Origin: Altibacter sp. HG106
Lineage (GTDB): Bacteria; Bacteroidota; Bacteroidia; Flavobacteriales; Flavobacteriaceae
Length of the DNA: 64,000 nt
Direction: 5' to 3'
Assembly: GCF_028561755.1 (NCBI RefSeq)
Contig: NZ_JAQQTD010000002.1
Coordinates: 310,001-374,000, forward strand
This document shows, piece after piece, positions 5,619-52,671 of this stretch; the stretch's first letter is position 1, and each line of letters begins with the position of its first letter. Both the position numbers and the translations under genes were made by a program. Under the pieces are notes generated by a model, which did no database searches, had not been told where the DNA came from, and worked only from the letters and a program-made list of their open reading frames with translations.

Positions 5619-6038
5619 TTATTTTTTTTGAACCCAGTATTCGAGATCAGTGATGTTACCCTCTTCGTCTACCGCATACGTTCCGGGCTTCACCGAGATT
5701 TGATTAGCTCCCCAAGTGAAGGTATTGGAGCTTATGACGGTAACCGAATCACTATTTTTTCGCGCACTGGCTTGTTTGTGATTCTTAAAGATAGGAAAAC
5801 ATATAAAATGCTCTGTGTTGCAACAAATAGTGACTGTGGTACTAATTGTGATAAATTGACCATCAATCTCAATGGTTACGTCTTGACAAAAATTCCGACT
5901 GCTTTCGCCTGCAGGCACATATTGTGATAGCGTAGCATTATTTACTACTGTGGTTTCTTGTGCTCTGACTTCAGAAAGGGTGACTAAAATCATTACAATC
6001 ATAAGAAGGGTTCGGGTTACATAGATACGTGTTGACAT
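5619..6038 (-). CDS. Secreted cysteine-containing protein of unknown function
   Basis: A 139-residue protein starting MSTRIYVTRTLLMIVMILVT, a typical Sec signal peptide cleaved after VRA-QE. The mature part has Cys in NFCQD, TICCN and HFICF, which could form two disulfides, and a C-terminal segment of short beta-like stretches. An upstream in-frame start at 6179 would add 47 residues before the signal peptide and is rejected. No family recognised. It probably shares a transcript with the RDD gene. Confidence 0.65.
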   Translation of the reverse strand: MSTRIYVTRTLLMIVMILVTLSEVRAQETTVVNNATLSQYVPAGESSRNFCQDVTIEIDGQFITISTTVTICCNTEHFICFPIFKNHKQASARKNSDSVTVISSNTFTWGANQISVKPGTYAVDEEGNITDLEYWVQKK

Positions 6039-38612: not shown

Positions 38613-38657
38613 GGTACTTATTAAAAACAGCTACCCAAATGGGCAGGATGGGGTAGC

Positions 38658-38700
38658 TGACAAAAATCATCTTTTTCTTACGTGCCAGGCACTACCTTCG
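38658..38700 (+). promoter_or_regulatory. Fnr-type operator plus -7 box of the usp gene (site a)
   Basis: TGACAAAAATCA at 38658-38669 (one base off a perfect TGAC-N4-GTCA palindrome; flanks C and T as in the other three sites), 23 bases, then TACCTTCG at 38693-38700 (one base off TAnnTTTG). No TTG in the -33 window. ATG 38724. Confidence 0.75.
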
Positions 38701-38723: not shown

Positions 38724-39563
38724 ATGAAGACAATTTTAGTTCCTACTGATTTTTCACCGCATTCTGAAAATGCCTTGAGAGCCGCCGCGAGCATTGCCAA
38801 GAAAAAGAACGCCCAGATCATGGTGGTACACATGATTGGATTGGAAAGCGGACTCCTAACGTCGAATACCGATCTACCCACCGAAGCTTCTGTGTTCTAC
38901 GTTAAATTGGCCGAAAAACGCTTTTCTGAACTATTAGATCAGGTATATCTAAAAGATATTCAGGTGAAGTCTATGGTAAAAAAATACCGGAATTTTTCAG
39001 AAATAAATACGCTGGCCGCGGAACTTGAAACCGACTTGATCGTTATGAGCTCACACGGTGCCAGTGGTATCGAAGAGCTATTTCTGGGATCGAATACCGA
39101 AAAAGTGATCAGAACGTCTGAAATCCCCGTGTTGGTGATCAAACAATTTGTAGCTGATTTTGATATTGATTTAGGGGTGTTTGCAAGCGATTTTTCTTCG
39201 GAAGCGGTTAGCGTCTACATAGAAGCAAAGCAATTTTTCGACTTGTTTCAAGCTACCATGAAAACGGTTTATGTCAATATTCCCGGTAGGAACTTCAAAA
39301 CGAGTTCTGAAATTGACAAATTGCTCTATGATTTCTTTGAAGAAGCCGGATATGAAAATCCATCGGAAGCGGTTTCACAAGTCTCTATTGTTTCCGATAA
39401 GACCGTAGAACAAGGCGTGCTAGCCTATAGCGACCTTATCGATTCAGATGTAATAGTAGTGCCTACCCATGGTCGAAGAGGCTTGTCTCATTTGCTCCGC
39501 GGGAGTATTTCCGAAGATGTGGCAAACCACTCGCATAAACCGGTACTTACCATGAAATTATGA
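38724..39563 (+). CDS. Tandem universal stress protein
   Basis: A 279-residue protein of two Usp domains. Domain 1: MKTILVPTDFSPHSENALRA to about residue 145, with SSHGASGIEELFLGSNTEKV as the ATP-binding loop (G-2x-G-9x-G-S); domain 2: about 150-279, with PTHGRRGLSHLLRGSISEDV. Tandem Usp proteins bind ATP and appear in micro-oxic or anoxic survival in several bacteria. It carries the same operator as the cco and hem genes, tying it to oxygen limitation. Convergent with the Fnr-type gene, 3 bases apart. Confidence 0.9.
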   Translation: MKTILVPTDFSPHSENALRAAASIAKKKNAQIMVVHMIGLESGLLTSNTDLPTEASVFYVKLAEKRFSELLDQVYLKDIQVKSMVKKYRNFSEINTLAAELETDLIVMSSHGASGIEELFLGSNTEKVIRTSEIPVLVIKQFVADFDIDLGVFASDFSSEAVSVYIEAKQFFDLFQATMKTVYVNIPGRNFKTSSEIDKLLYDFFEEAGYENPSEAVSQVSIVSDKTVEQGVLAYSDLIDSDVIVVPTHGRRGLSHLLRGSISEDVANHSHKPVLTMKL

Positions 39564-39566
39564 GGG

Positions 39567-40268
39567 TTAAAGTCCTTCTGAAAGATTGTAAAGCGACTTC
39601 TTGTCTTCCAGTTTGATACGCTTTCCGGAAGTACTTACCAGTCCTTCTTTCTTAAACTTGGTAAGAGTACGTATGAGTAATTCGGTTGCCGTCCCTACCA
39701 CGTCTGCAATGTCGGCTCGGGATAACTGAAGGTATAGGTATCCGTCTTCGTCTTCGCCGAAATGGCTATCGAGGTATAATAAAACTTCGGCAAGACGTTG
39801 GCGGACACTTTTATGCGCCATATTTACAATGACATCATCGGCAAATTTCAGTTCCTGCGCCATCATCTTGAGCACGGCATTGGTAAAAAGCGGATTGTTT
39901 TGTAAACTCTCCTCGATATGTGTCTTCGGAATAAAACACACTTCCATATTTTCCAGCGCTGTGGCGCTCAAGTTGGTAGTTTCCGAAGCAATGACCGAGC
40001 GTTGTCCCAGCACCTCACCCTTGGAAGCGATCTTCACGATTTGATCGCGCCCGTTATCGCTCATTTTAGAAAGTTTAGAAATACCGTTCCGAACGCAAAA
40101 CACCCCATTGAGGCGTTCGCCTTCTTCGAAAATAGATTCGCCTTTTTTGATACTTCTGGTTTCTTTGCTATCCGACATGCGTTTTAACTCCTCTTTCTTC
40201 AAGGCCTTAAAACTGTTCATTTGTCTTATGATACAATTCTCGCAGCGCGATTGTGCTTTTTTATCCAT
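39567..40268 (-). CDS. Crp/Fnr-family transcriptional regulator
   Basis: A 233-residue regulator: cyclic-nucleotide-binding-type beta-roll (residues about 20-135), dimer helix, and a winged HTH (about 165-230) with recognition helix GTATELLIRTLTKFKKEGL. The recognition Glu and Arg (E..xxR) match E. coli FNR, where they read TTGAT-type half-sites. Cluster cysteines: Cys9 and Cys12 (RCENC) align with FNR Cys20/Cys23 and Cys111 (EVCFIP) with Cys122; the position of FNR Cys29 is Asn18. Thus an Fe-S sensor with three Cys plus another ligand is possible. The likely regulator of the four TGAC-N4-GTCA promoters around it. Confidence 0.9.
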   Translation of the reverse strand: MDKKAQSRCENCIIRQMNSFKALKKEELKRMSDSKETRSIKKGESIFEEGERLNGVFCVRNGISKLSKMSDNGRDQIVKIASKGEVLGQRSVIASETTNLSATALENMEVCFIPKTHIEESLQNNPLFTNAVLKMMAQELKFADDVIVNMAHKSVRQRLAEVLLYLDSHFGEDEDGYLYLQLSRADIADVVGTATELLIRTLTKFKKEGLVSTSGKRIKLEDKKSLYNLSEGL

Positions 40269-40544: not shown

Positions 40545-40617
40545 AACATATTTTTAGAAAGGTACGGATTACCACGTCAAAAGGGTGTCAATAAATTCCT
40601 AAAAAAGAGGATACGGC

Positions 40618-40660
40618 TGACAAAAGTCATCTTTTTCGCCCCCTTACTTTGTCACCTTTG
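40618..40660 (+). promoter_or_regulatory. Fnr-type operator plus -7 box of ccoI (site b)
   Basis: TGACAAAAGTCA at 40618-40629, 23 bases, CACCTTTG at 40653-40660 (one base off TAnnTTTG). ATG at 40707. No TTG in the -33 window. Confidence 0.8.
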
Positions 40661-40706: not shown

Positions 40707-43142
40707 ATGGAATTATGTTTTCACTGTGGGGATCCTTGTAAGGAGACAGCGATTGTTGCGCAAGACAAGCATTTTTGTTGTCACGGATGCAAAACCGTTT
40801 ACGATATACTAAATGACAACGACCTTTCGCATTATTATAATCTCGAAACAAGACCTGGAATTTCTCCCTCCCGATTTGACGGAAAATTTGATTTTCTGGA
40901 AAACGATTCCATTGTCGAGAAGCTACTGGATTTCAATGAAAACAACGTTCAAGTAGTCACGTTTACCATACCATCGATTCATTGTAGCTCCTGTATCTGG
41001 GTCTTGGAAAACTTGCATAAAATAGAACCCGCCGTACAAAGCGTACAAGTAAACTTTCCGAAGAAAACCGCGCGAATCACCTATGCTGCCAACGAACTGA
41101 AGCTGCTTGACGTCGTTGTCTTATTAAGTAAAATAGGCTACGAACCCTACATTTCTCTAGAGGACGCCACTAAGGAAGACGCCCGTATCGACCGAAGTTT
41201 GATCTACAAACTAGGGGTAGCAGGTTTTGCCTTTGGGAATATCATGTTTTTGTCGTTTCCCGAATATTTTGAAGTTCACGACTTCTGGTTAGACCGTTTC
41301 AAACATTTGTTTCGTTGGTTGATGTTCGGGTTTTCGTTGCCGGTGGTCCTGTATTCGGGACAGGATTATTTAATTTCAGCCTTCAAGAGCTTGCGCGCTA
41401 AAATGCTCAATATTGACATTCCTATCGCATTAGGAATTATCGTGCTCTTTGCGCGTTCTACGCTAGAGATTGCGATGGATTGGGGAACCGGCTTTTTCGA
41501 TAGCCTATCGGGCTTGGTATTCTTTTTACTACTCGGAAAATTTTTTCAGCAAAAAACCTATTCCTTCCTCTCTTTTGAGCGCGATTACAAATCGTATTTT
41601 CCCATAGCGGTGACGCGGTTGCGAAAGCTAACTTCGGAAGGCAATACTTCCATCAAAGAAGAACAAGCGCAGATAAACGAATTAGCTCCGGGCGACCGTA
41701 TTTTAATTCGGAATGAAGAATTGATACCCGTCGACGGGATCTTAATCAACGGGAACGCCTTGATTGACTATAGTTTTGTGACCGGGGAAGCCGAACCCGT
41801 CACAAAGCAGTCGGGAGATACCTTGTATGCAGGAGGGCGACAACAGGCGGGTATCATAGAGGTAGAGGTAATTGCTTCCGTGGCCCAAAGTTATCTAACT
41901 CAGTTATGGGCGAATGACGTATTTTCGAAACGGCACACCACTTTTTACAAGGGCATTACCAATACGGTGAGCAAACACTTTACGATAAGTCTTTTGGCTA
42001 TTGCCATTATCGCCACCACCTTTTGGCTATATTACGAACCCTCCTTGGCGCTCAATGTTTTTACGGCGGTTCTTATCGTCGCCTGTCCCTGTGCGATTGC
42101 ACTGGCTGCGCCTTTCACTTTAGGAAACATGCTCAGAATTTTCGGGCGTCACAAATTATATGCGAAAAACAGCGCGGTTATTGAGCAATTGGCCGAGGTA
42201 GATACGGTGGTTTTCGACAAAACCGGAACCCTTACCACTACTAAAAAAAGTGTGATCACCTATGAGGGAATCGCCCTTACTTCGGAAGAAGAGCGTTTGC
42301 TTACGGCTACCTTGCGAGCTTCCAATCATCCGTTAAGTAGATCGCTATACGATATGCTTCAGGTCAACGACATCTATACGTTGGATGAATTCACAGAGGA
42401 AGTAGGGCAAGGAATAACAGGGCGAAAAGAATACAATCAAGTGAAGGTGGGAGGGTATGATTTTGTCGCAAAAAATTTGCCACAACATGAAGCGCCTCTT
42501 TCTTCCAACCGAACCAGTGTTCACATAAGCACGAACAAGCAATACAAAGGGTGCTATGTATTCTACCACGAATACCGTACAGGGGTGCAAGCGGTGTTTG
42601 ACGCCTTATCTCCTTCAAACGAACTTGTGGTCTTATCTGGCGATAATGATGGAGAGAAGGCATATCTATCAAAATTACTTCCGAAGAAAACGCGATTTGC
42701 TTTCAATCAAAAGCCAGAAGACAAGTTAGTATTCATTAAACGTCTGCAGCAGGATGGAAAGAAAGTGCTTATGGTGGGCGACGGATTGAATGATGCAGGA
42801 GCCCTGGCACAAAGTGATGTGGGGATTGTAATTTCCGAGAACATCAACGTTTTTTCGCCAGCCTGCGATGGTATTTTAGATGCTGCTCGTTTCAACGACC
42901 TTCCACGATTTATCCAACTTTCTGAAAAGGCGAGAGCGGTGATCAAATATGCCTTTTTATTTTCTCTGCTCTACAACTTAATAGGATTAGGGTTTGCCGT
43001 CATAGGACATCTGAAACCGGTGATTGCGGCTGTTTTAATGCCACTGAGTTCAATAAGCATTGTCGTTTTCACTACCCTCTACACTTACGTGCTTGGAAGA
43101 CAATTGCAAACAAAAGGGACCCGTCAAAGTTCGGTGCGATGA
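40707..43142 (+). CDS. ccoI: Copper-translocating P-type ATPase for cbb3 oxidase assembly
   Basis: An 811-residue P1B ATPase of the FixI/CcoI/CopA2 type, exporting copper for loading of the cbb3 oxidase. The N-terminus is Cys-rich (MELCFHCGDPC; HFCCHGCKTVYDIL), as in this subfamily, then an HMA domain with IHCSSCIWVLE, eight transmembrane helices with the ion-binding CPCAIALAAPF, the phosphorylation site DKTGTLT, and GDGLNDAGALAQSD. Position between an Fnr-type gene and ccoS, and operator (b), fit the cbb3 role. Confidence 0.93.
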   Translation: MELCFHCGDPCKETAIVAQDKHFCCHGCKTVYDILNDNDLSHYYNLETRPGISPSRFDGKFDFLENDSIVEKLLDFNENNVQVVTFTIPSIHCSSCIWVLENLHKIEPAVQSVQVNFPKKTARITYAANELKLLDVVVLLSKIGYEPYISLEDATKEDARIDRSLIYKLGVAGFAFGNIMFLSFPEYFEVHDFWLDRFKHLFRWLMFGFSLPVVLYSGQDYLISAFKSLRAKMLNIDIPIALGIIVLFARSTLEIAMDWGTGFFDSLSGLVFFLLLGKFFQQKTYSFLSFERDYKSYFPIAVTRLRKLTSEGNTSIKEEQAQINELAPGDRILIRNEELIPVDGILINGNALIDYSFVTGEAEPVTKQSGDTLYAGGRQQAGIIEVEVIASVAQSYLTQLWANDVFSKRHTTFYKGITNTVSKHFTISLLAIAIIATTFWLYYEPSLALNVFTAVLIVACPCAIALAAPFTLGNMLRIFGRHKLYAKNSAVIEQLAEVDTVVFDKTGTLTTTKKSVITYEGIALTSEEERLLTATLRASNHPLSRSLYDMLQVNDIYTLDEFTEEVGQGITGRKEYNQVKVGGYDFVAKNLPQHEAPLSSNRTSVHISTNKQYKGCYVFYHEYRTGVQAVFDALSPSNELVVLSGDNDGEKAYLSKLLPKKTRFAFNQKPEDKLVFIKRLQQDGKKVLMVGDGLNDAGALAQSDVGIVISENINVFSPACDGILDAARFNDLPRFIQLSEKARAVIKYAFLFSLLYNLIGLGFAVIGHLKPVIAAVLMPLSSISIVVFTTLYTYVLGRQLQTKGTRQSSVR

Positions 43143-43164
43143 AGGATATAAAATACGTGGGAAC

Positions 43165-43207
43165 TGACAAAAGTCATCATTTAGGAAATCGGGCCATGCT
43201 ACTTTTA
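43165..43207 (+). promoter_or_regulatory. Fnr-type operator plus -7 box of ccoS (site c)
   Basis: TGACAAAAGTCA at 43165-43176, 23 bases, TACTTTTA at 43200-43207 (one base off TAnnTTTG). ATG at 43228. The site lies 22 bases behind the ccoI stop, giving ccoS-NOQP its own promoter. Confidence 0.8.
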
Positions 43208-43227: not shown

Positions 43228-43443
43228 ATGAATATTATTTATCTGCTTTTAACCATTAGTGTTATCGTTGCTCTCGGCTTTTTCGTAGCCTTTGTGCTTT
43301 CGGTGCGAAAAGGGCAGTATGACGACGTATACACTCCCTCGGTGCGAATGCTGTTTGATGATGAACTCGTTAAAGGAAAGACCGAAGTATCCACCAAAAA
43401 CAAGCAATCAATACCAACTCAAGAACAACAAGGATCATTATGA
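43228..43443 (+). CDS. ccoS: cbb3-type oxidase assembly protein CcoS
   Basis: A 71-residue single-helix membrane protein. One helix (residues 3-27) is followed by the CcoS signature KGQYDDVYTPSVRMLFDDE. CcoS is required for cofactor insertion in cbb3 oxidase. The C-terminus is hydrophilic. The stop overlaps the ccoN start by 4 bases (ATGA). Confidence 0.93.
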   Translation: MNIIYLLLTISVIVALGFFVAFVLSVRKGQYDDVYTPSVRMLFDDELVKGKTEVSTKNKQSIPTQEQQGSL

Positions 43444-45644
43444 AATTAGACACTTTTTACTACGACAATAAGATCGTTCGTAAGTTTGTAATCGCAACAT
43501 TATTTTGGGGCATTATTGGGATGAGCGTGGGGCTCCTGCTCGCCTTTATGTTTTTATTCCCAAACCTCACGGATGGTATTTCCTGGTTGAGTTTCGGGCG
43601 GTTACGTCCGCTTCATACCAACGCGGTGATCTTCGCTTTTGTTGGAAACGCCATCTTTGCCGGGGTCTATTATTCTACCCAGCGCCTCCTAAAAGCGCGT
43701 ATGTGGAAAAATTGGCTCAGTAATTTCAATTTTTGGGGCTGGCAGCTGATCATTTTAGGCGCTGCCATCACACTTCCGCTAGGATATACCACCTCTAAAG
43801 AATACGCAGAACTGGAATGGCCTTTCGATATCGCCATTGCCCTGGTATGGGTCGCTTTTGGCGCCAACCTTATTGGGACGATCTTAAAGCGTCGTCAACG
43901 ACACCTGTATGTCGCCATTTGGTTTTATATCGCCACCTTCGTAACGGTTGCGGTGCTTCATATTGTCAATAGCATCGAATTGCCTATTAGCGCCCTAAAA
44001 AGCTATTCGGCCTATGCTGGAGTGCAAGATGCCTTGGTACAATGGTGGTACGGTCATAACGCGGTTGCCTTTTTCCTTACCACACCGTTCCTGGGGTTGA
44101 TGTACTATTTTGTTCCGAAGGCGGCAAATAGACCCGTCTATTCGTACCGTCTGTCGATTATCCACTTTTGGTCGCTCATCTTTATCTATATCTGGGCAGG
44201 GCCACACCACTTGTTATACACTTCCTTACCGGGTTGGGCACAGAGCTTAGGGGTCGCTTTTTCGGTGATGCTGATCGCCCCTTCCTGGGGGGGGATGATC
44301 AACGGACTCCTAACCTTGCGCGGTGCCTGGGATAAGGTGCGTACCGACCCCGTGTTGAAGTTTATGGTGGTCGCGATTACCGGATACGGGATGGCGACTT
44401 TTGAAGGTCCCATGCTGTCTTTGAAGAACGTGAACGCCATCGCACACTTCACCGATTGGATCATTGCCCACGTGCACGTAGGCGCTTTGGCTTGGAATGG
44501 CTTCCTCACCTTTGGAATGGTGTATTGGCTGGTTCCGAAGTTATTCAAAACCAAATTGTGGTCAACGAAATTAGCGAACGTCCATTTCTGGATCGGTACG
44601 TTGGGAATCATTATGTATGCGCTACCCATGTATGTAGCCGGATTTGTACAAGCCTTTATGTGGAAACAATTCAATCCTGATGGTACCTTGGTCTATGGAA
44701 ACTTTCTGGAAACCGTCAGCGAGATAATCCCCATGTACTGGATGCGTGCGATAGGAGGAAGCCTTTATATCGTAGGGGCAATCATTGGGGTGTACAACGC
44801 CTATAAAACCGCTCGCTCCGGAAGCAAGGTAACCGATGAGCTAGCCGAAGCGGCTCCTTTAGAACGTGTCACCAAGAAGAGAACCGTGAAAGAAGGATGG
44901 CATACCTGGTTAGAACGACGTCCTGTCAAGTTAACGCTGTATGCGACCATCGCGATTCTTATTGGTGGTATCGTACAGATCATGCCCTCTCTCTTAGTGG
45001 ATGATTACGTCCCAAAAATTTCCAGTGTGAAACCGTATACGCCATTGGAGCTGGAAGGGCGCGATATCTATATACGTGAAAGCTGTAACGCCTGCCATTC
45101 GCAAATGGTACGGCCCTTCCGAAGCGAGGTAGAACGCTATGGCGAATATTCTAAAGCAGGAGAGTTTGTGTACGATCATCCCTTCCTGTGGGGAAGCAAG
45201 CGAACCGGGCCCGACTTGCATCGTATTGGTCAAAAATACAGCGATAACTGGCATCTAAATCACTTCTACGATCCGCAGAGCACCTCTTCCGGTTCGATCA
45301 TGCCTTCGTACAAGTGGCTCATTCGGAATAAACTGGATAAAAGCATGACAGAGAAGAAAATGCAGGCTATGATCTCTTTAGGAGTGCCATATTCTGAAGA
45401 AGATGTAGCGCGCGCACAAGCATGGATGAGCGAACAAGGAACACAGATCGAGCAGAACTTATATGCCGATCCCGATTTCGCTAAAACGTACGAAGCCGAT
45501 AAGACCTATGCGGCTGAAAATGGCGAAGAATTTATTGAAATGCGTGATCGCGAGGTGGTCGCCCTTATCGCCTATCTACAGCGGTTAGGAACCGATATTA
45601 ACGTGCCTGAAGGAGAAGAGACGGCAGTAAACTTAAACGACTAA
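43440..45644 (+). CDS. ccoNO: Fused cbb3 cytochrome c oxidase subunit I/II (CcoN-CcoO)
   Basis: A 734-residue fusion typical of Bacteroidota. Residues about 1-480 are CcoN, the twelve-helix haem-copper subunit (RPLHTNAVIFAFVGNAIFAG; the copper-ligand stretch WWYGHNAVAFFLT; GPHHLLYTSLP; the haem ligands in IIAHVHVGALAWNG). After a linker and one helix (residues about 500-520) comes CcoO, a membrane-anchored mono-haem cytochrome c with CNACH at residues 549-553 and MVRPFRSEVERYGEYS. The complex reduces O2 at low concentrations and pumps protons. Translationally coupled to ccoS. Confidence 0.96.
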   Translation: MKLDTFYYDNKIVRKFVIATLFWGIIGMSVGLLLAFMFLFPNLTDGISWLSFGRLRPLHTNAVIFAFVGNAIFAGVYYSTQRLLKARMWKNWLSNFNFWGWQLIILGAAITLPLGYTTSKEYAELEWPFDIAIALVWVAFGANLIGTILKRRQRHLYVAIWFYIATFVTVAVLHIVNSIELPISALKSYSAYAGVQDALVQWWYGHNAVAFFLTTPFLGLMYYFVPKAANRPVYSYRLSIIHFWSLIFIYIWAGPHHLLYTSLPGWAQSLGVAFSVMLIAPSWGGMINGLLTLRGAWDKVRTDPVLKFMVVAITGYGMATFEGPMLSLKNVNAIAHFTDWIIAHVHVGALAWNGFLTFGMVYWLVPKLFKTKLWSTKLANVHFWIGTLGIIMYALPMYVAGFVQAFMWKQFNPDGTLVYGNFLETVSEIIPMYWMRAIGGSLYIVGAIIGVYNAYKTARSGSKVTDELAEAAPLERVTKKRTVKEGWHTWLERRPVKLTLYATIAILIGGIVQIMPSLLVDDYVPKISSVKPYTPLELEGRDIYIRESCNACHSQMVRPFRSEVERYGEYSKAGEFVYDHPFLWGSKRTGPDLHRIGQKYSDNWHLNHFYDPQSTSSGSIMPSYKWLIRNKLDKSMTEKKMQAMISLGVPYSEEDVARAQAWMSEQGTQIEQNLYADPDFAKTYEADKTYAAENGEEFIEMRDREVVALIAYLQRLGTDINVPEGEETAVNLND

Positions 45645-50393: not shown

Positions 50394-51755
50394 TTATACC
50401 GTCATGGAAAACAATCGAGTTTCCGGACGTCTTCGTTGCAATCGAAGATCAAACGGAAGACATACATTTCGAACAAATGGTTTTCCCGCTTCCGTGATAC
50501 GAAGGTTAGTGGCTTCCAAGGCTACAAGACCGTCTCTTTCGAGTTCCGATAATTGCGTTAGGATCTCCGCCATTTGAGGGAGTTGCATGGCTTCGGAATC
50601 CCACGAGGTTTCAAACCGGCACATGAGATTCAGAATATGTTTTCTTACGATAAGGTCTTCTTGGGTGAGTAAATGTCCACGAAATACTGGAAGCTCATGG
50701 GCGCGCAACGCCGCATAATATTCAGGTAGCGTCTTCACATTCTGAGCGAATCCGCTCCAGCTATCTCCAATGGCGGAAACGCCTAGCCCCAGCATCATTT
50801 TGGTTGCTGCGGTGGTGTAGCCCATAAAGTTTCGGTGTAGTTTTCCGTTTTGCTGCGCCAACGCAAGGTCGTCTGAAGGCAGCGCGAAATGATCCATGCC
50901 TATTTCACGATAGCCAGCTTGCTCAAGCATCGCCTTGCCAAGTTCGTACTGACGGCGTTTTTCGGCGGCGGTGGGGAGATCAGCCTCCTGATAGCCACGT
51001 TGTCCGTTCCCTTTGATCCAGGGAACATGGGCGTAGCTGTAAAATGCTAGTCGGTCGGGCCGCAAGCGCAGGGTTTGCTCAATGGTATATGCCACATGCG
51101 CTTCGGTTTGAAAGGGGAGTCCGAATACCAAATCATGTCCCACAGAAGTATAGCCAATAGCACGAGCTTGTTGAGTTACCTCTGCTACATTTTCGAACGG
51201 CTGTACGCGATGAATCGCACGTTGCACCGTTTCATTATAGTCTTGAACTCCATAACAAACCCTTCGGAAGCCATTGCGATACAAGGTGTTAAGGTGGGTT
51301 TGCGTGGTGTTATTAGGATGGCCTTCAAAACTGAACTCGGCTTCGGGATGAAGAGACGCTCTCGTAAACAAGCCCGCCAATAAGGCTTCAAGGTTTTCCG
51401 CGGAAAAAAAGGTAGGCGTACCACCACCCAAATGAAGTTGTTGAATGATGGGTGCATACCCTAACAGTTCACAATACATTTCAAATTCCCGTAACACCGC
51501 TTTGATGTAAGGAAGCTCCACCAAATGGTTTTTGGTGATGCGTTTGGTACAACCACAAAAAGTGCACATGCTTTCACAAAAAGGTAGGTGAATGTACACG
51601 CTAATTCCCGTTTCGGGGCTGGCTATTTGCTGTAAGGATTGTTCCCAACCCTGGGCAGAGAAACGCTCGGTATTCCAATAAGGGACCGTGGGATAGCTAG
51701 TATACCGCGGTCCGGGAACATTGTATTTGGTGATTAATAAAGTGTTGTCAATCAT
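50394..51755 (-). CDS. hemN: Oxygen-independent coproporphyrinogen III oxidase HemN
   Basis: A 453-residue radical-SAM enzyme that converts coproporphyrinogen III to protoporphyrinogen IX without oxygen, needed for haem synthesis when O2 is low. GPRYTSYPTVP opens the protein; the cluster motif is CESMCTFCGC (Cys60, Cys64, Cys67, and Cys69 of the usual CxxxCxxCxC), followed by LGGGTPTF. Its ATG overlaps the stop of the 94-residue gene (ATGA). The pair is driven by operator (d). Confidence 0.95.
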   Translation of the reverse strand: MIDNTLLITKYNVPGPRYTSYPTVPYWNTERFSAQGWEQSLQQIASPETGISVYIHLPFCESMCTFCGCTKRITKNHLVELPYIKAVLREFEMYCELLGYAPIIQQLHLGGGTPTFFSAENLEALLAGLFTRASLHPEAEFSFEGHPNNTTQTHLNTLYRNGFRRVCYGVQDYNETVQRAIHRVQPFENVAEVTQQARAIGYTSVGHDLVFGLPFQTEAHVAYTIEQTLRLRPDRLAFYSYAHVPWIKGNGQRGYQEADLPTAAEKRRQYELGKAMLEQAGYREIGMDHFALPSDDLALAQQNGKLHRNFMGYTTAATKMMLGLGVSAIGDSWSGFAQNVKTLPEYYAALRAHELPVFRGHLLTQEDLIVRKHILNLMCRFETSWDSEAMQLPQMAEILTQLSELERDGLVALEATNLRITEAGKPFVRNVCLPFDLRLQRRRPETRLFSMTV

Positions 51756-52036
51756 AAGAACAAACTCACTACAATAACCAGAGTGTTAACGATAGTGCTG
51801 GCCACTAATAGCTTGAAGATCAATTTGGGTTTCTGGACCGTGAGAATTGCTGCATTATGGGCCGTGCAAATACCTACACAGATCATCACTAACGCCATAT
51901 GCCAGAAGCTGTGACCGAAGGAAAGTATTTGCATGATTGCGATGGAGCCCAGGCAGGTAGAAAGAATAATTCCTAAGGCTGAATAGCCCATTATATTGTT
52001 CGTAAAATCTTTCTCAAGTTGTGCAAAGGTTGTCAT
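51752..52036 (-). CDS. 94-residue membrane protein coupled to hemN
   Basis: MTTFAQLEKDFTNNIMGYSA then three hydrophobic segments (residues about 17-38, 43-63, 73-92). The stop overlaps the hemN ATG by 4 bases, so the two are translationally coupled and transcribed from the operator/promoter at 52063-52105. No family recognised. Co-regulation with hemN suggests a role in the oxygen-limited haem or respiratory system, which is inference. Confidence 0.7.
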   Translation of the reverse strand: MTTFAQLEKDFTNNIMGYSALGIILSTCLGSIAIMQILSFGHSFWHMALVMICVGICTAHNAAILTVQKPKLIFKLLVASTIVNTLVIVVSLFL

Positions 52037-52062: not shown

Positions 52063-52105
52063 CAAAGATACCTTGGGTTATACAGGGTTTTTATGACTTT
52101 TGTCA
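52063..52105 (-). promoter_or_regulatory. Fnr-type operator plus -7 box of the hemN operon (site d)
   Basis: On the minus strand TGACAAAAGTCA (52105-52094), 23 bases, TATCTTTG (52070-52063), a full TAnnTTTG match. ATG of the first gene at 52036. The operator lies in the last codons of the upstream gene (its C-terminal TDKSHK). Confidence 0.82.
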
Positions 52106-52671
52106 GTTGAATGGTTTGTGGACAATTTAGGATCTAAGATGTTGGTCTCAAACCCATCAATACTTTGCGTATTTTTTTCTTGCCAATACTGTTCAATGCG
52201 CTCCTGACCTTGTTTTTCGGCCCAGTCGTGTAGCACGGTACGTTCTTCTTTATATTCCATGAACGGAACTGCATATCCACAAGAGGTTTGTACTAAATCT
52301 ACCTGCATTTCAATGATTTGCCGCGCACCTGGAGTTTCAGGAAATAGACCTATGTGTTGTTGATAGGCGGCATCTCTAGGATGATAGATGGAAGCTGTTC
52401 CGTATAAACGAAGAATGAGTGGTTTACCTTCAAAAGCGCAAAACATGATCGTCATACGCGGGTGTTTCAGTAAATGCGCTGCCGTTTCGTTCCCGCTGCC
52501 GGTGAGATTGAGCCATACTACCTTGTTCGCGTTAAGAACACGAAATGAATCCATTCCCTTTGGAGAAACATTCACGCGTCCTTCCGCAGCCGCAGTACCC
52601 ACAAAGAAGATCGGCTGTTTTTCAATAAAGTTCTTCAATTCTGGAGTGATGGCATCCAATTGTTTTCCCAT
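52078..52671 (-). CDS. Pyridoxamine 5'-phosphate oxidase-family protein
   Basis: A 197-residue FMN-binding split-barrel protein: PIFFVGTAAAEGRVNVSPKG (residues about 20-39), VVWLNLTGSGNETAAHLLKH, RMTIMFCAFEGKPLILRLYG. This is the PPOX-type domain of general flavoproteins; the reaction is unknown. The protein's last 13 codons include operator (d) for the next operon. Start at ATG 52671. Confidence 0.85.
   Translation of the reverse strand: MGKQLDAITPELKNFIEKQPIFFVGTAAAEGRVNVSPKGMDSFRVLNANKVVWLNLTGSGNETAAHLLKHPRMTIMFCAFEGKPLILRLYGTASIYHPRDAAYQQHIGLFPETPGARQIIEMQVDLVQTSCGYAVPFMEYKEERTVLHDWAEKQGQERIEQYWQEKNTQSIDGFETNILDPKLSTNHSTDKSHKNPV

Follow-up and report, generated by a model that had tools for sequence, protein, structure and literature searches.

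The 64,000-nucleotide stretch of Altibacter sp. HG106 DNA analysed here (the window) encodes a Crp/Fnr-family regulator that, judged from its sequence, is a variant of FNR that is conserved, clearly delimited and frequent among Bacteroidota. Its C58, carried on a strand of the barrel, most likely replaces FNR C29 as the fourth cluster ligand. We put at roughly 0.64 the probability that the protein serves as this genome's FNR, activating the cbb3 oxidase genes, usp and probably hemN by way of an oxygen-labile Fe-S cluster with C9, C12, C58 and C111 as ligands. We file it as an FNR variant because it is FNR-like by every indirect sign, yet the defining cysteine spacing of FNR is absent.

Family membership and cysteine pattern

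The protein matches the Pfam domains cNMP_binding (PF00027, 64.1 bits) and HTH_Crp_2 (PF13545, 56.1 bits), each above its cut-off, and so belongs to the Crp/Fnr superfamily; fold matches of its structure model, with Z scores of up to 28.1, support a cNMP-binding-like barrel and a Crp-type HTH. Its scores are below the cut-offs of the NCBIfam models for Fnr (PRK11161.1, 107.1 against 228) and FnrL (87.6 against 300). The Altibacter genome encodes four cNMP-binding proteins, of which the profile P0001 matches only this one at E 0.001; the cNMP proteins L249-L251 of the same genome gave no match in the homologue search. The gene and the codons discussed below are as follows.

39567-40268, minus strand: Crp/Fnr-family regulator, 233 aa, four cysteines; complete ORF with ATG start
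40242-40244, minus strand: Cys9 codon (FNR Cys20), invariant in 57/57 homologues
40233-40235, minus strand: Cys12 codon (FNR Cys23), invariant in 57/57
40215-40217, minus strand: Asn18 codon at the FNR Cys29 position, probable helix N-cap, at a break between helices in the model
40095-40097, minus strand: Cys58 codon (FNR Ala70), proposed fourth ligand, invariant in 57/57
39936-39938, minus strand: Cys111 codon (FNR Cys122), from the FNR alignment and the model, invariant in 57/57
39654-39695, minus strand: recognition-helix region G192-F205, with E196, I199 and R200 invariant in 57/57

Cysteines occur at positions 9, 12, 58 and 111 exactly, with none C-terminal of 111. The preliminary description had equated C9 and C12 with FNR Cys20 and Cys23, and C111 with Cys122, leaving Asn18 at the place of Cys29, and this pairing was recovered in alignments with two FNR proteins. 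Against the A. fischeri protein, using the sequence of the solved structure, C9 and C12 fall on the cysteines of CQDC, N18 on the third cysteine, C111 on the cysteine of MVCEIP and C58 on the Ala of LYAIRSG. Alignment with an E. coli FNR sequence gives the same pairing (C20, C23, C29, C122 and A70). Three of the four FNR cysteines (20, 23, 29 and 122) are therefore present and the one at position 29 is Asn18, and the N-terminal loop and barrel together still hold four conserved cysteines. In the recognition helix, FNR Glu209 and Arg213 are retained as E196 and R200, and Ser212 is replaced by Ile199, as had also been described.

Conservation was scored in 57 loci, own gene included. These are the best-scoring matches in 120 genomes of the family and 296 genomes of the phylum to which the window belongs, hence a selected set, and four of the rows are only 39-42% identical to the window protein. 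C9, C12, C58, C111, E196, I199 and R200 are identical in 57/57 rows, so chance is not an issue. A strain-specific mutation is ruled out, as the four cysteines are shared by all 57 rows and by a genome of the same genus (G012, 97% identical). Position 18 is N in 38 rows, S in 17, T in 2 and Cys in 0. Of the two residues put forward for an orthologue alignment in the preliminary description, Cys58 is thus conserved and Asn18 is not, and relatives with Cys at position 18, which would have spoken against the original proposal, were not found among the 57. The window protein also has N107 (39948-39950) where D is found in 55/57 rows, and H152 (39813-39815) where Q is found in 53/57.

The structure model, built from an alignment of 47 of these sequences (A1), has a pLDDT of 92.1. 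C58 lies within strand 55-61 and C111 within strand 108-114, presumably the third and eighth strands of the Crp/Fnr barrel, which lie next to each other in the jelly roll. In this model N18 separates helix 13-17 from helix 19-22 and has the look of a helix cap; with its position at a helix start and its variation among N, S and T it is not a plausible ligand, and it was rejected as one. Five solved holo-FNR structures align with the model from residue 6-8 on (Z 24-25, rmsd 2.8-2.9), the mixed-cluster form 9qlx from residue 9, and five FNR forms with a degraded, [2Fe-2S] or absent cluster from residue 25-35 only, where these ranges give just the first and last aligned residues.

C58 and the third N-terminal cysteine

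The alignment A1 was also used to scan named genomes, and we retained the best 80 of 510 confirmed relatives (78/80 titled Flavobacteriaceae, 80/80 Bacteroidota), to which a further 80 regions around weaker matches in the phylum, containing orthologues and paralogues, were added. The resulting set of 250 proteins includes 30 homologues of a sister family and E. coli FNR, and some near-duplicates. L155, with an interrupted frame, and L193-L195, without a match at E 1e-8, were left out before counting.

An N-terminal CxxC is present in 193/250 homologues (E. coli FNR included), and all 193 carry C111. Where the CxxC is the only source of N-terminal cysteines, C58 is always found (155/155). Conversely, each of the 20 CxxC proteins without C58, E. 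coli FNR among them, has at least three N-terminal cysteines, in the patterns CxxCx4C (x5 in FNR), Cx4CxxC with or without a further xxC, and CxxCx8C. C58 also occurs in 18/38 proteins with three or more N-terminal cysteines, although in four of these 18 (L033, L045, L064 and L109) the extra cysteine is upstream of CxxC and is probably an artefact of start-codon choice. As either C58 or a third N-terminal cysteine is always there, every CxxC protein in the set has at least four cysteines at these positions. When the set is thinned to 60% non-redundancy, C58 is found in 26/26 proteins with two N-terminal cysteines versus 13/24 with more (Fisher p 7e-5, uncorrected for kinship). An independent-pairs test on a 94-row tree found 3 pairs on well-supported branches and was not significant (median p 0.5); the best tree implies at least 7 changes of C58, with many weak branches. 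The C58 type is distributed across at least ten Bacteroidota families (f1, f4, f8, f9, f22, f24, f27, f42, f46 and f50).

The preliminary description had suggested that any cluster must use a different fourth ligand, with Cys58 or the Asp/Glu of the next helix as candidates. The first candidate is strengthened by these counts, being invariant and the sole further conserved Cys, Asp, Glu or His that is peculiar to the CxxC type. The second was rejected, because no acid is conserved in that helix. More generally, comparing homologues with and without CxxC did not reveal any Asp, Glu or His whose conservation is specific to the CxxC type. E49 reaches 84% in the group lacking CxxC as well, and the acid at 186, which that group has in 57/57, is, like E196, part of the DNA-binding domain. 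What began as a guess about C58 has, on these comparisons, become the leading hypothesis.

Rather unlikely, in our estimate, is a cluster held by C9, C12 and C111 plus a non-cysteine or outside ligand (Asp/Glu, Asn18, water or a thiol), with C58 as a buried structural residue. Such an arrangement has a parallel in B. subtilis Fnr, which uses Asp141 and three cysteines according to excerpts of PMC3520743. Against it stand the missing specific acid or His, the variability of position 18 (N 106, S 44, T 3, A 1 and E 1 in the 155 proteins with two N-terminal cysteines), and the tie between C58 and the loop, since C58 is present in all 155 of these proteins and absent from 11/24 non-redundant ones with more N-terminal cysteines.

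A further point in favour of the four-cysteine site comes from f2, a sister family of the order with matches in 117/120 genomes. We examined 54 f2 homologues, comprising the 30 best-scoring loci, 20 further ones and L158-L161. None of the 54 has an N-terminal CxxC; C58 only is kept in 15, C111 only in 6, neither in 33 and both in 0. This looks like the decay of a shared site following loss of the loop. However, persistence of C58 in 15/54 proteins without CxxC or C111 means that a cysteine is tolerated there without a cluster, which favours the three-cysteine arrangement and weakens the argument for C58 as a ligand. C58 and C111 without N-terminal cysteines are also seen in L185 and L191, and C58 alone in L143_4920.

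Paralogues show further cysteine arrangements. Divergent second Crp/Fnr paralogues are encoded in the orthologue's locus in three cases (L067 9271, L071 9249 and L074 2466); they have one or two N-terminal cysteines, C58 in 2/3 and C111 in 3/3. Elsewhere in the phylum are paralogues with three or four N-terminal cysteines and without C58, forming two groups, one with L164, L166, L174, L181, L190, L210-L214 and L217 and the other with L167-L169, L171, L175, L182 and L189.

Gene neighbourhood and predicted operators

The regulator gene adjoins genes for CcoI (a P-type ATPase), CcoS (Pfam FixS), a fused CcoN-CcoO, CcoP, CcoG and CcoH (Pfam FixH), and usp and hemN are close by. Four predicted operators, each with a promoter-like box, precede genes of this region.

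38657-38670, plus strand: operator CTGACAAAAATCAT upstream of usp (probable ATG at 38724; Pfam Usp), with box TACCTTCG at 38693-38700
40617-40630, plus strand: operator CTGACAAAAGTCAT upstream of ccoI (40707), with box CACCTTTG at 40653-40660
40707-43142, plus strand: ccoI-like heavy-metal P-type ATPase, TIGR01525 at 338.1 bits, just below the cut-off of 346.25
43164-43177, plus strand: operator CTGACAAAAGTCAT upstream of ccoS (43228; Pfam FixS) and ccoNO, with box TACTTTTA at 43200-43207
43440-45644, plus strand: fused ccoN-ccoO cbb3 oxidase subunits; PRK14485, ccoN and ccoO above cut-off
52093-52106, minus strand: operator CTGACAAAAGTCAT upstream of a 94-aa ORF (51752-52036) that precedes hemN (50394-51755, above cut-off), with box TATCTTTG at 52063-52070

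Among the named loci (best 80 of 510), a CcoI match is found in 76/80, or 59/61 when only loci of more than 20 kb are considered, CcoNO in 69/80 and CcoP in 66/80. A TGA-N6-TCA site lies between 220 bp upstream and 40 bp downstream of the ccoI start in 74 of these 76 loci, against 6.1 loci expected from mononucleotide shuffling. In the same best 80 of 510, the predicted operator upstream of ccoI has the consensus [A/C]TGA[C/T]AAATRTCAT, and its general form is [A/C]TGAY-N4-RTCAT. A box within one mismatch of TAnnTTTG starts exactly 22 bp after the 14-mer in 68/70 loci with the stricter site (also from the best 80 of 510), where about 1 is expected. Only 1 locus has an exact TAnnTTTG, and as the first base is seldom T, AnnTTTG describes the box better. 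Provided that this box corresponds to the -7 element used by these bacteria, the operator would be centred near -41, where class II FNR promoters have theirs.

The 64-kb window holds four such operator-box pairs (those of usp, ccoI, ccoS and the 94-aa ORF), whereas 60 mononucleotide shuffles gave a mean of 0.02 and at most 1. With an exact AnnTTTG box there are four matches in the whole genome, two of them outside the window, and 0 in the reversed control. One of these two (G000 C18:122588-122631, in L282 and L283) precedes a 140-aa ORF without a Pfam match and an AraC-type HTH ORF, directly after an ORF of the TonB-receptor type; by sequence it is a possible further regulon member. The other (L286 1501-1544, G000 C20:397116-397159) is located between a NifU-domain ORF and an ORF for a flavoprotein of the disulfide-reductase type, which by eye is ferredoxin-NADP-reductase-like and is followed by a 110-aa ORF that appears, again by eye, ferredoxin-like.

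Some searches gave no excess over chance. In the window, TTGAC-N4-GTCAA and TGAC-N6-GTCA with mismatches allowed were not above expectation; TGAC-N4-RTCA without mismatch gave 10 strand-wise matches versus 3.3 expected, with as many in 1/100 shuffles. The sites at 5981 and 60418 are probably chance matches, having no promoter box alongside, and the latter lies within an ORF. Among the named loci (best 80 of 510), sites were found upstream of HemN in 1/9 (0.8 expected) and in the stretch directly before CcoNO in 2/69 (5.6 expected); in the window, the sites related to hemN and CcoNO are one small ORF further upstream. The HemN count speaks against a link to hemN that holds generally.

FNR half-sites are TTGAT, and Ser212 contacts the outer base. 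The predicted sites share the TGA-N6-TCA core of the TTGAT-N4-ATCAA operator, with the outer base mostly A or C for T: in the ccoI sites of the best 80 of 510, T occupies this position in 3/78 left halves and the right half is TCAT in 74/78. Ile199, invariant at the Ser212 position, may be the cause of this altered outer base. It had earlier been offered as an explanation for TGAC half-sites, a part of the proposal that does not hold, as 54 of the 78 sites have C and 21 have T as their inner base and TGAC is not the distinguishing feature.

The surroundings of the gene also bear on two readings in which no cluster is involved. In the first, which we consider less likely still than a three-cysteine cluster, the cysteines are free of iron and form either a redox disulfide switch (C58-C111 and C9-C12) or a Zn(Cys)4 site. 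Zinc sites, too, typically combine CxxC with two more conserved cysteines, and FixK2 is an example of a cysteine-based switch known in the family (PMC12937710, in excerpt). Yet three of the four positions are those of FNR cluster ligands, the neighbourhood and operators are FNR-like, and the same phylum has paralogues with three FNR-like N-terminal cysteines and C111. In the second, the protein is a Crp-type regulator of cco genes that acts independently of its cysteines and responds to some other signal or to its own abundance. The f2 proteins L158-L161 could be read in this way: their genes, like that of the window protein, are neighbours of those for CcoI and CcoNO, all four of their cysteines are gone, and a TGA-N6-TCA site upstream of ccoI is retained. 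Carbon sensing has also been predicted for Flavobacteriales and Saprospiraceae homologues, which are possibly of another type (excerpts of PMC8510549). Invariance of the four cysteines across at least ten families of the phylum makes a cysteine-independent regulator very improbable here.

Proposed mechanism and relation to known systems

We infer a bound iron-sulfur cluster, with C58 as one of its ligands, and a response to oxygen. In the absence of oxygen the cluster would form and the dimer would bind [A/C]TGAY-N4-RTCAT centred near -41, from where it would activate transcription in class-II fashion; oxygen would break the cluster and end DNA binding. C9 and C12 on the short N-terminal loop would hold the cluster together with C58 and C111 on barrel strands, in contrast to the three-plus-one arrangement of FNR. 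With the fourth ligand placed in the rigid core, as proposed, the protein should transmit its signal differently from E. coli FNR and may also differ from it in oxygen sensitivity.

The Gram-negative FNR proteins of E. coli and A. fischeri are similar in fold, in the positions of CxxC and C122, in the Glu and Arg of the recognition helix, in the TGA-N6-TCA operator core and in targets of the cco, usp and hemN type. They differ in having the fourth cysteine at Cys29, where the window protein has it at 58 (FNR Ala70), in Ser212, which is Ile here, and in the outer operator base, which is T in place of A/C. Rhodobacter FnrL, one precedent for a different ligand set, resembles the window protein in having four cysteines placed otherwise than in FNR and in targeting ccoN and uspA; its sites are mostly of the TTGAT form, but some begin with ATGA or CTGA, as do the sites predicted here (PMC4634722, in excerpt). 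The window protein is nevertheless under the FnrL cut-off. B. subtilis Fnr, with Asp141, sets a precedent for a non-standard fourth ligand (PMC3520743, in excerpt), although its cysteines are C-terminal and the window protein has no cysteine in that region. The paralogues of the same phylum with three N-terminal cysteines (such as L166 and L210) share CxxC and C111, but have a CxxCx4C loop and no C58. Searches of an open-access library turned up no account of a C58-type ligand and no study of FNR or its ligands in these bacteria.

Taken across the phylum, these proteins may represent a Bacteroidota-wide class of oxygen sensors in which the FNR cluster is held two-plus-two, by the N-terminal loop and two barrel strands, and in which loop and barrel cysteines have been swapped in evolution; we favour this wider interpretation slightly over its negation. 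Surveys keyed on the four canonical FNR cysteines can overlook proteins of the C58 type; one genome survey set aside a Xanthomonadales homologue without the canonical cysteines (excerpts of PMC8510549). Should C58 be the fourth ligand, such surveys could be missing an FNR that is widespread in a large phylum, and the operator, followed after 22 bp by an AnnTTTG box, would provide a signature for prediction of its regulon. The C58 type would also be a natural ligand swap in a model Fe-S sensor, open to investigation by one point mutation.
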